Assembly: GCA_002238725.1 (NCBI GenBank)
Contig: MPMX01000008.1
Location: forward strand, 1 to 64,000
Length of the DNA stretch: 64,000 bases
Source: Rhodospirillaceae bacterium bin65
GTDB taxonomy: Bacteria > Pseudomonadota > Alphaproteobacteria > Bin65
Direction: 5' to 3'
Every line of letters begins with the position of its first letter. The stretch's first letter is position 1. Positions 50,238-54,032 of the stretch are shown in pieces. The position numbers and the translations under genes are program-made. The notes under the pieces are model-generated. The model was not told the origin of the DNA. It was given only the letters and a program-made list of their open reading frames with translations, and did no database searches.

Positions 50238-52547
50238 TCAGGCCGCCCGGCGCGCGCCGTTCAGCACCCGGAAGACGGCGAGCGGCGTCGCCGGCATGTC
50301 GATATGGTCGATCCCGGTCGCCGGGCGCAGGGCATTGACCAGCGCGTTGATGACGGCCGGCGGCGCACCGATCGCCCCGGCCTCGCCCGCACCCTTGATG
50401 CCGAGCGGGTTGGTCGTGCAGTGCACGTTGCGGGTGTCGAAGCTGAAGAACGGGAAATAATCCGCCTTGGGCATGTTGTAGTCCATGAACGACCCGGTTT
50501 CGAGCTGGCCGCTCGCCGGATCGTACCAGGTGAATTCGTGCAGCGCCTGGCCGAGCCCCTGAACGATGCCGCCATGCACCTGGCCCTCGATCAGCAGCGG
50601 ATTGATCGTGTCGCCGAAGTCGTCGACCACCGTATAACGCAGAATCTCGATTTCGGCGGTCTCGGCATCGACCTCCAGTTCGACGATATGGGCGCCGTTG
50701 GGATAGGTGTCCGCTTCGGGCGTGCGTTCGAACGATTCGTCGAGCGGTTCGCCGTTCTCCTTCGCGTGGCCGGCGACATCGAACAGGGATACCTCCCGGT
50801 CGGTGCCGGCGACCCGGTAGGCGCCGTCGCCGTACTCGACGTCCCCGGGGGCGGCCTCCAGCATGTCGGCGGCGGTCTGCCGGCCCTTGTCAACGATGGC
50901 CGCAGCCAGCCCCAGCATTGCCGACCCGCCGACCGGGACGGAGCGCGACCCGCCGGTCATGCCGGGCGGGGCGCGGTCCGAATCGCCCTGGAAAATGCGG
51001 ATGCTCTCTGCGTCGATGCCGAGTTCGCCGGACAGGATCTGGCTGTAGGCGGTCTGGTGGCCCTGGCCGTTGTCCATCGTCCCGATGGCGACGGTGAGAA
51101 TGCCGTCGTCGCCGAAAGTGCCGGCCGCGACTTCTGGCGGGCCGCCGCCGCAGCGCTCGATATAGGTGGCGAGGCCGATGCCGCGATACTTGCCGCGCTT
51201 TGCCGATTCGGCCCGGCGGGCCTCGAAGCCGGCCCAGTCGGCCTGGGCCATCGTCTCGTCCATCAGCGCCTCGAACTCGCCGCTGTCGTACGTGTCGCCC
51301 AGGCAGGTGGCGTAGGGCATCTGCTCCGGCCGGATGAAGTTGATCCTGCGGATTTCGGCGGGCGACCGGCCCGTTTCCAGCGCTGCCATGTCGATGATCC
51401 GCTCGATGATATAGGCAGCTTCCGGCCGCCCGGCGCCGCGATAGGCGTCGACCGGCACCGTATTGGTCAGCACGCCCTTCACCGTCGTGTAGACGGCCGG
51501 GATGTCGTAGAGGCCGACCAGCATGTCCATGCCGAAACAGGCGACCAGCGGGGCGAATGTCGACAGATAGGCGCCTTCGTTGGCGAACGTGTCGGCGCGC
51601 AGGGCGAGGATTTTGCCGTTCCGGTCCAGGCCCAGCTTGCAGTAGGTGATGTTGTCCCGCGCCTGGACGTCGGAGAGAAAGCCCTCGGACCGTTCGGAGG
51701 TCCATTTGACCGGCCGCTTGAGCCGGCGCGCCGCCCAGATTGCCAGCGCCTGTTCCGCGTGCGGAAAGACCTTCATGCCGAAACCGCCGCCGACATGGCC
51801 GGTGGTGACGCGCAGGTGCGACGGATCGATTCCGAAAACGGGCTGGGCAAGAATATCGCGGATCAGGCTCGGTCCCTGGGTCGAGGCTGCGAGCGTCGTG
51901 CGCCCGCTCGCGGCGTCGTGTACGGCGAGCGCGCTGCGCGGCTCCATCGGATTTGCGACCACCCGGTTGTTGACCAGCCGGAGTTCGCAGACATGGTCCG
52001 CCCGGGCCAGCGCCGCCTCGACGCCGGCCTCGTCGCCCTTGTGCCAGTCGTAGATCAGATTGTTGGGGATGTGGTCGTAGAGCAGCGGGGCGTCGTCCGC
52101 CGTCGAATGTTCCGTGTGGATGGTAACCGGCAGTTCCTCATACTCCACTGCAATCCGCTCGGCGGCGTCGCGCGCCTGGGCCGCCGTCTCGGCCACGACC
52201 AGCACCACGGGATGGCCGACATAGCGCACGCGGTCGTCGGCCAGAATGCCGTGCGGCGAGTCGTGGCGCGCCGAACCGTCCCGGTTCTCGATGGGAATCA
52301 TGCAGGGCATGTCGCCGAGGCCGTCGGCGGCCATATCCGCGCCGGTCAGGATGCCGACCACACCCGGCAATCCCAGGGCATCGGCAATGTCTATCCCGAG
52401 AATGCGGGCGTGGGCGTGCGGGGAGCGCAGGACATGGGCCCAGACCTGGCCGGCGACGGAAGAATCGTCGGTATAGGCGCCTGCACCGGTCACAAGCACC
52501 CGATCCTCGACACGGGCCGCAGCCTGGCCAACTCCGAATTTGGTCAT
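50238..52547 (-). CDS. CoxL-type molybdenum-binding subunit of a xanthine dehydrogenase-family oxidoreductase (form II motif)
   Basis: This is a 769-residue large subunit. The chain starts VGQAAARVEDRVLVTGAGAY. The Mo-cofactor-contacting regions GGGFGMKVFPHAEQAL and DAYRGAGRPEAAYIIE are present. The AYRGAGR active-site sequence is that of form II (BMS-type) CO-dehydrogenase-like proteins, not the AYXCSFR of true CODH, so the substrate is uncertain. A terminal GGSRS-like loop occurs as MTGGSRSVPVGGSAM. The usual FAD (CoxM) and iron-sulfur (CoxS) subunits are absent from the neighbourhood, so it must recruit them from elsewhere. First gene of the minus-strand operon. Confidence 0.88.
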   Translation of the reverse strand: MTKFGVGQAAARVEDRVLVTGAGAYTDDSSVAGQVWAHVLRSPHAHARILGIDIADALGLPGVVGILTGADMAADGLGDMPCMIPIENRDGSARHDSPHGILADDRVRYVGHPVVLVVAETAAQARDAAERIAVEYEELPVTIHTEHSTADDAPLLYDHIPNNLIYDWHKGDEAGVEAALARADHVCELRLVNNRVVANPMEPRSALAVHDAASGRTTLAASTQGPSLIRDILAQPVFGIDPSHLRVTTGHVGGGFGMKVFPHAEQALAIWAARRLKRPVKWTSERSEGFLSDVQARDNITYCKLGLDRNGKILALRADTFANEGAYLSTFAPLVACFGMDMLVGLYDIPAVYTTVKGVLTNTVPVDAYRGAGRPEAAYIIERIIDMAALETGRSPAEIRRINFIRPEQMPYATCLGDTYDSGEFEALMDETMAQADWAGFEARRAESAKRGKYRGIGLATYIERCGGGPPEVAAGTFGDDGILTVAIGTMDNGQGHQTAYSQILSGELGIDAESIRIFQGDSDRAPPGMTGGSRSVPVGGSAMLGLAAAIVDKGRQTAADMLEAAPGDVEYGDGAYRVAGTDREVSLFDVAGHAKENGEPLDESFERTPEADTYPNGAHIVELEVDAETAEIEILRYTVVDDFGDTINPLLIEGQVHGGIVQGLGQALHEFTWYDPASGQLETGSFMDYNMPKADYFPFFSFDTRNVHCTTNPLGIKGAGEAGAIGAPPAVINALVNALRPATGIDHIDMPATPLAVFRVLNGARRAA

Positions 52548-52594: not shown

Positions 52595-52938
52595 GCGGAA
52601 ACGGTAATGCCGCGCCCGGCACGGTGCGCCAAACTTAACCCGGATTTCTCCCCACAGTCACGGCCTGCGTCGCGTCCAGGCGTTCGCTCCGCCAGGAGCG
52701 GGCCGAAAAGCGTAGCGGGGCCTACGGTTGAGGCCCGCGACGCCGCGGGCGGACGCCTGGGCGCGACCCGGAGGGCGTCGCTGTCGGGCCGGCATGGTGC
52801 GTCAAGCCGCTTGCCCGATGTCCCCGCATCGCGCTGCGCGGCTTTCCTGCCCTGCCGGCCCGACAGCGACGCGCAGGTCATGACTGTGGGGAGAAATCCG
52901 GGTTGGCGCGCCGGGCAGGGGCGGCAAGCGGATTCCGC
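52595..52938. repeat. nested inverted-repeat element (core 52637-52904)
   Basis: The core arms, 52637-52660 and 52881-52904, are perfect 24-base complements (left begins AACCCGGATTTCTCC, right ends GGAGAAATCCGGGTT). Outside, similarity continues imperfectly to about 52595 and 52938, with a six-base ACTTAA insertion on the left. Inside are two further stems: 52671-52687 with 52749-52765 (17 pairs, two of them G-T) and 52775-52794 with 52853-52872 (20 perfect pairs), each enclosing smaller hairpins. The whole can fold into one long branched structure. No target-site duplication or transposase is seen. It could be a MITE-like element or a structured RNA/DNA. Confidence 0.85.
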
Positions 52939-53132: not shown

Positions 53133-54032
53133 ATGACCATGAATTTCGATCGTCGTTCCGCAGCCTATCTGCAGAATCCGCAACCGCTCTTGCAGCGCCT
53201 GCTGTCGCAGGTGTCGACGGAAACGCTGCCCGACGCGGATCAGGTCGACAAGGTGTGCGCGCACGTTCCGGCGGGCACACGGATCTTCGTCGCCTCGCTG
53301 CCGTCGCGCGACCGCGCCGATACGGTGGCCGCCGCGAAGACGCTGAACGACCGCGGCTACATCGCCGTCCCGCACATCGCGGCGCGGGCCTTGCCGAGCC
53401 ATGCGGCGCTGGAAGATTTCCTCTATCGCCTGACCGGCGAGGCCGGCTGCCGCGAGGCACTGGTGATCGCCGGCGACCGTCCGGAAGTGGCCGGGCCTTA
53501 TGCCGAAACCATGGATGTATTGCTGACCGGCGCGCTGGAGCGCCACGGCCTGCAGATCATCCATGTCGGCGCCCATCCCGAGGGCAACCGGATCATCGGC
53601 AAGGATGCGCTGCGCGAGGCCATGCGCAAGAAGGACTATTACGCTCGCAGCAGCGACGCCGACTTCGATTTCGTCACCCAGTTCGTCTTCGACGGCGCGA
53701 CGGTGGTCGATTGGGCGCAGAAGCTGCGCGGACTGGGCGTTGGCCTGCCGGTGCGACTCGGCATCGCCGGACCGGCCGATCTGGCGACCCTGCTGCGTTA
53801 CGCCAGGATCTGCGGCATCGGCGTCTCCACCCGCGCGTTGATGCGCCAGGGCGCCGGCAGCGTGAAGCTGATCCGCCGGACCGTGAAGCCGGACGACCTG
53901 ATCGCCGGCCTGGTCGCCGCTGCCGGCGAGGATCCGTTGCCGGAGATCGCCGGGCTGCACATCTTCCCGTTCGGCGGCGTCGGGCGGGCCATGGAGTGGC
54001 TGGGCGAAGCGCGGCGGACCGCCGGGCTGTAA
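53133..54032 (+). CDS. methylenetetrahydrofolate reductase family protein (MetF-like)
   Basis: This is a 299-residue flavoprotein-fold protein. The TIM-barrel pattern is recognisable in GYIAVPHIAARALPSHAALE, ALVIAGDRPEVAGPY, HPEGNRIIGKDALREAM, DADFDFVTQFVFD and GIAGPADLATLLRYARICGI. The last two correspond to the folate/NADH-contacting strands of MTHFR. It is embedded among catabolic genes rather than methionine genes, so it may channel a methyl or C1 unit released by an O- or N-demethylation to folate, or have a diverged substrate. ATG at 53133; a second ATG follows two codons later. Confidence 0.82.
   Translation: MTMNFDRRSAAYLQNPQPLLQRLLSQVSTETLPDADQVDKVCAHVPAGTRIFVASLPSRDRADTVAAAKTLNDRGYIAVPHIAARALPSHAALEDFLYRLTGEAGCREALVIAGDRPEVAGPYAETMDVLLTGALERHGLQIIHVGAHPEGNRIIGKDALREAMRKKDYYARSSDADFDFVTQFVFDGATVVDWAQKLRGLGVGLPVRLGIAGPADLATLLRYARICGIGVSTRALMRQGAGSVKLIRRTVKPDDLIAGLVAAAGEDPLPEIAGLHIFPFGGVGRAMEWLGEARRTAGL

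Follow-up and report, generated by a model that had tools for sequence, protein, structure and literature searches.

MITEs are usually regarded as short-lived debris of one insertion sequence. In the available text of PMC3116915, REPINs are described as doublets of REP sequences that form hairpins, with 71 and 110 bp as common distances between REPs. The element analysed here lies in a 64,000-nucleotide stretch of DNA from Rhodospirillaceae bacterium bin65 (the window; positions 1 to 64,000 of contig MPMX01000008.1) and has features of both classes; a search of the open-licence literature gave no published description of it.

Overall organization of the element

The element has a length of 266 bp (positions 52638-52903, ends ACCCGGAT...ATCCGGGT) and consists of 33-bp TIRs surrounding two hairpin lobes. 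Its boundaries are defined by four empty sites, and L022 and L023 are homologues. An initial sequence-only reading of the window had proposed a nested inverted-repeat element of ~0.3 kb at 52595-52938; such an element is indeed present, but the proposed extent was too long. The left TIR (52637-52669, + strand), of which the first ~17 bases match IS1380-family ends, and the right TIR (52872-52904, - strand) were both recovered in an inverted-repeat scan and are 94% complementary over 33 bp, thus extending the perfect 24-bp outer repeat (AACCCGGATTTCTCCCCACAGTCA) that had already been noticed. The weaker symmetry further outwards, previously taken as part of the element, belongs to the target, as the empty sites already carry GCCCGGCACG...CGTGCAGGGC (CGTGCCGGGC in G005). 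These motifs form a pre-existing, imperfect target-site palindrome with its arms at 52614-52623 and 52907-52916.

The left lobe is a hairpin module in inverted orientation (52680-52758, - strand), identified by its predicted fold and by a covariance model described below, with stem arms within 52669-52767. The stem previously suggested for this lobe was recovered as the arm pair 52669-52704 / 52732-52767, which shows 72% ungapped complementarity. The right lobe (52784-52862, + strand; stem arms within 52775-52872) contains the conserved core CGCTTGCCCGATG-loop-CATCGCGCTGCGC; its perfect 20-bp stem (52775-52794 / 52853-52872), likewise seen before, is the start of a 23-nt arm pair with 96% complementarity. 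Between the lobes, motif counting and folding indicate a small junction hairpin, CCC-GGA-GGG (52767-52775), of which just two bases are paired in the best fold of the window copy. A CCC-N2to4-GGG motif is found mid-element in 36 of 80 elements, compared with 306 of 1600 shuffled sequences.

A scan of the whole window for inverted repeats with arms of at least 20 nt within 400 bp yielded four pairs, the best two of which (94% and 96%) are those of the element while the others reach 74-75%, in agreement with the earlier impression that nothing comparable occurs elsewhere in the window. The region 52600-52935 has a predicted folding energy of -258.4 kcal/mol (z -15.3) on the + strand and -244.2 kcal/mol (z -14.9) on the - strand, and on either strand none of 100 shuffled sequences folds as well. 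Comparison of the element with the Rfam covariance models gave mir-138 as the only match (20 bits, E 0.35), far below the cut-off of 50, and no matches at E 0.05 were obtained for 20 element loci.

Insertion site and flanking genes

The same intergenic site is empty in four genomes of the same genus (G001, G002, G003 and G005), with both flanks alignable. The empty site reads CAAACTTAGCG and the filled site CAAACTTA-ACCC...GGGT-TG-GCG, such that the 268 extra bases correspond to the element plus one dinucleotide. The left copy of the duplicated TA from the target TTAG lies at 52636-52637, while the right copy of the target dinucleotide, at 52904-52905, is now TG, one change from TA. The site sequences fit an insertion into TTAG with duplication of TA, followed by a change of the right copy to TG. 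Judged from this comparison of filled and empty sites, the element is a mobile insertion.

The flanking genes are those suggested earlier from the sequence, i.e., a coxL-like and a metF-like gene. The gene on the left (50238-52547, - strand; start codon chosen here) encodes a CoxL/xanthine-dehydrogenase-type molybdopterin subunit, with matches to the Pfam families MoCoBD_1, MoCoBD_2 and Ald_Xan_dh_C and NCBIfam matches below the cut-offs. The gene on the right (53133-54032, + strand; start codon chosen here) encodes a MetF-like protein, which matches PDB entry 7xg9 with an E value of 7.3e-47 and shows weak NCBIfam matches and no Pfam match at 1e-5. The element had been thought to replace most of the control region between these genes; instead it was inserted into this region, since its flanks align on both sides to the four empty sites. 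The target's own symmetry is already found in the empty sites, and the element was therefore added to the control region, none of which was replaced.

Inverted lobes between unrelated ends

Extraction from 301 loci gave 121 element entries, of which 103 could be oriented and 80 remained below 90% identity. Most cores measure 257-270 bp from one TA dinucleotide to the other, and a second group lies at ~296-299 bp. Members of this longer subgroup, with ~30 bp extra and a core of 296-299 bp, include L183, L211, L236, L239 and L298. Allowing the boundaries to shift by at most 4 bases, TA is present on both sides of 58 of the 80 elements, on one side of 19 and on neither side of 3. The elements carry different types of ends, with GAGC in 38, CCCG, the type of the window copy, in 20, CCAA in 13 and others in 6, while 3 are without an assigned type. 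Within an element the arms are 94.6% complementary, a figure inflated by selection as the extraction demanded 19/25, versus 33% between elements. The interior is common to all end types, so that the same core sits between unrelated TIRs.

The covariance model R1 was built from an alignment (A2) of 66 of the 80 non-redundant right lobes, the other 14 having been excluded by hand as weak or near-duplicate. The right lobe of the window copy, itself included in A2, matches R1 with 78.2 bits. The left lobe is matched on the minus strand with 47.1 bits in a search of 341 bases with filters off, and is not found with the default filters. Of 42 loci tested, 31 had any match to R1, and 20 had lobes on opposite strands. 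G313, G365 and G069 have 106, 57 and 40 lobe matches, respectively, and among the matches listed many form minus-then-plus pairs ~101 bp apart. Direct alignment of the interiors of the two halves exceeds the best of 20 shuffles in 46 of the 80 elements; the window copy is not among them, with a score of 51.5 against 60.5 for the best shuffle. R1, although built from right lobes, thus also recognizes the left lobe, on the opposite strand; both lobes are inverted copies of one hairpin, and the element is built from two half-units arranged head to head, as in REPINs.

Structural selection on the lobes

Covariation across the copies, which the sequence-only reading had proposed to look for, is strong in the lobes. 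In the right-lobe alignment 93.4% of the cells are paired, compared with 79.3% after shuffling, 147 cells are changed on both sides of a pair, compared with 45.6, and the covariation score is 0.333, compared with 0.099 for shuffled and at most 0.129 for slid versions; none of 500 shuffles equals any of these three values, a significance that is overstated because the lobe sequences are related. The remaining two of the five covariation measures do not stand out (28 and 53 of 500 shuffles). The internal loops contain bases conserved in at least 90% of the sequences, at alignment columns 17, 19, 29, 30, 33, 51, 55, 56, 66 and 68.

The mismatches within the lobes show a marked strand asymmetry. 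On the motif strand of the right lobes, 41 A.C and 3 G.T mismatch cells were counted (32:2 by 75% clusters, p 7e-8), which on the complementary strand, read from the outside inwards, corresponds to a G.U to A.C ratio of 41:3. The asymmetry is repeated in the left lobes when these are turned to the same orientation (31:8); in this left/right comparison the alignment of the right halves gave no structure, and the right-lobe values are those from A2 only. Pooled over whole elements, the mismatches (G.T 88, A.C 87) show no strand preference, whereas splitting them lobe by lobe reveals a strong preference, which on the + strand runs one way in the left lobe and the other way in the right; this would be expected of inverted copies that are each selected on one strand. 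The earlier idea that G-T pairs hint at selection on a single strand thus fails for the pooled counts but holds for the individual lobes. No bias is seen in the outer stem (27 to 38), nor can there be one, because its two strands are equivalent.

In a comparison with nearest relatives, the route to G.U was C-to-T in 58 cases and A-to-G in 23, and 8 changes went in the opposite direction. Strand-biased mutation could account for part of the wobble asymmetry, as 58 of the 81 routes fit C-to-T; C deamination alone would not produce the 23 A-to-G routes. Selection on a folded single strand would be expected to retain wobble pairs and keep A.C rare, as is observed on the inward-read strand, and the aligned lobes look as if the hairpins have been kept in shape by selection.

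Copies and distribution

In its own genome the element gives 20 BLAST places, including some self-matches, and the additional copies are partial. The ends of the element occur in six of seven genomes of the genus, with 69 matches versus none for a reversed control; the seventh, G006, has none. Full-length relatives are present in G001 and G003, with 92% and 90% identity, respectively, and many other genus copies are one-ended or cut at contig ends. In L024, L030, L031, L032, L036, L037, L038 and L043 a draft contig breaks off within or at the element, and copy numbers obtained from drafts are probably too low. The genus commonly contains half-units, comprising one terminal arm and one lobe, as well as solo terminal arms (L002, L003 and L042, among others), in some cases at sites shared by two genomes; in analogy with REP singlets they look like remnants. 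Both further copies, in the own genome and the genus, and the four empty sites were thus found where the sequence-only reading had advised a search, and the element is neither single-copy nor an inverted misjoin, the two possibilities that had been named against it.

At the level of the class, relatives were detected by BLAST in 38 of 385 genomes and with R1, at 1e-4, in 44 of 385. Over the phylum, R1 matches were obtained in 27 of 398 genomes, 14 from the same class and 13 from other classes. Fifteen loci from the phylum search, 13 of which are from other classes, were examined, and in five of them both lobes are recognized by R1 (L371, L374, L375, L377 and L378, the first three from other classes); several others show the same build by their folds and end repeats. 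A DNA pattern of the right lobe is present in at least 120 stretches of a genome collection. Among the matches listed, all titles name an alphaproteobacterial taxon or "Proteobacteria bacterium", including Inquilinus limosus, Rhizobium sp. NFR03, Neorhizobium galegae, Thalassospira mesophila and Agrobacterium vitis. The searches of phages, E. coli and viral contigs gave no match. A plasmid of Comamonas odontotermitis carries a full-length relative between genes, with 74.7% identity to L364, a copy from another class; R1 gives no match to this relative. R1 likewise gives no match to a 94-bp intergenic match (L344) between LacI- and AraC-family regulator genes on pRL12 of R. johnstonii 3841, which could represent either a RIME or a remnant of the element family.

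Candidate mobilizing transposases

A search of plasmids with the 31-base CCCG-type end returned IS1380-family ends, CTAGCCCGCATTTCTCAC, from Pseudomonas, Stutzerimonas and Bradyrhizobium. IS1380 genes with CTAGCCCGGATTTCTCAC ends are present in G002, of the same genus, and in G066 and G313, and G004 contains a related end; for the G002 insertion sequence one end only was found at the threshold used, and in G313 one of the two ends has diverged. The likeness is limited to the outer 17-20 bases of the 33-bp TIR. The IS1380 profile PF13701 was found in 11 of 20 genomes examined, and a search with it gave no match in the own draft genome or in G001, G003, G296 and G157, and no resident mobilizer of the window copy was found. 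In G002 (contig C127, L316) and G004 (contig C35, L318/L328), IS1380-type transposase genes contain a stop or a split frame, and the likely mobilizer may be decaying in these genomes. In G006, the sole genus member without the element, the IS1380 profile gave 17 matches, most of which are fragments.

PF13701 was not found in GAGC-type carriers such as G365 and G069; the other end types must therefore use other enzymes. Autonomous partners matching the GAGC and CCAA end types were not found, and a search of 30 loci for an autonomous copy with both 33-bp ends gave no clean pair at the length of an insertion sequence, with loose pairings only, in which one end matches at 13-16 of 19 positions. 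IS630, suggested by the CTAG/TA targets, was considered as mobilizer; DDE_3 is absent in the element carriers G001, G296, G319 and G372, and one IS630 of the own genome has different ends, TAGTGTAGTGTC. Y1_Tnp, representing RAYT, was found in 3 of 12 genomes and in none of the carriers G001, G002, G296, G319, G372 and G066. As several carriers lack them, neither IS630 nor Y1 transposases are likely to be the general mobilizers.

Proposed origin and alternative explanations

We consider it probable that the element is a non-autonomous, REPIN-like inverted doublet of MITE size, moved in trans by an IS1380 transposase, with hairpins under structural selection. The element comprises two half-units of ~133 bp head to head, each with its own terminal arm and hairpin lobe. 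In the CCCG subtype the outer arms imitate IS1380-family inverted repeats, and an IS1380 transposase encoded elsewhere is therefore the most likely mover, which would have brought the element into TTAG and duplicated TA. The lobes would be selected as folded single strands, either RNA or DNA, in the sense that runs from each end inwards, and most likely act on a transcript or a transposition intermediate that enters from their side.

A plain MITE, i.e., a deletion derivative of IS1380 with a functionless interior, in which template switching keeps the long repeats perfect and the folding merely follows from them, would also account for the IS1380-like tips and the CTAG/TTAG targets, and either palindrome correction or shared arm descent predicts the much higher complementarity of arms within than between elements. 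This explanation is nevertheless rather unlikely, since elements with unrelated ends have their interior in common and bases of the internal loops are strongly conserved, while template switching does not predict strand-specific wobble. The inverted hairpin doublet and the solo halves in the genome would suit a REPIN that owes its mobility to a RAYT, i.e., a REP-associated Y1 tyrosine transposase, but with Y1_Tnp in so few of the genomes searched and missing from all six carriers named above such an origin is improbable; moreover, TA duplication and long TIRs are not known as features of REPINs.

The position between two divergent genes might point to a cis-regulatory element native to this promoter. 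A native origin is refuted by the empty sites, which occur in four relatives with alignable flanks, and the element is present elsewhere in the genus, which makes this explanation very improbable. The chance that the element is an assembly artefact, created by an inverted misjoin, is negligible: many draft copies do stop at contig ends inside the element, but full copies occur at other sites in independent genomes, and the full-length Comamonas relative is part of a complete plasmid record.

Tentatively, the probable REPIN-like doublet described above might represent a phylum-wide mobile class with a constant inverted pair of RNA-like hairpins, each of which would be under selection in its folded form for the transcripts or single strands entering from its side. 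Such a class might survive in the long term by exchanging its outer arms, which would let different, unrelated transposases carry it, with the hairpin either making insertions tolerable from both directions, by terminating or processing read-through, or providing a signal that lets foreign transposases copy the element. Most interesting is that a non-coding element with ever-changing ends shows strand-specific conservation of its inverted hairpins. A single hairpin core persists, with strand-specific covariation, across Alphaproteobacteria and beyond. It can therefore be tested which features a non-coding mobile element has to keep in order to persist, and whether the hairpins act on transcripts from both sides. 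The covariance model also permits annotation of a hitherto unlabelled repeat, whose lobe matches reach 106 in one genome.

Comparison with known systems

Compared by description with the available text on the RIME, Sm and ABC repeats of rhizobia (PMC2573895), the element shares with these an intergenic position and a palindromic or mosaic build in Alphaproteobacteria. The Br-REP1 and Br-REP2 sequences of Bradyrhizobium, as presented in the available part of PMC5082802, are also adjacent, intergenic palindromes of Alphaproteobacteria; their printed consensus sequences, however, have 20 and ~40 nt and, by eye, do not contain the lobe core of the element.

The likeness to REPINs, as far as described in the available part of PMC3116915, concerns the two inverted hairpin modules that make up the unit, the occurrence of solo modules and the predicted folding as single-stranded DNA or mRNA, whereas a length of ~266 bp differs from the REP spacings given there. 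Unlike REPINs, the element possesses TIRs and a TA duplication, and Y1 transposases are absent from most carriers searched. With MITEs it shares the short length, TIR tips that match an insertion sequence family (IS1380-type), a target duplication, multiple copies and empty sites; it differs from MITEs in having a conserved hairpin core common to several unrelated end types and a length that is near constant across the class. The element is a real mobile element which joins MITE-like ends to a REPIN-like build.
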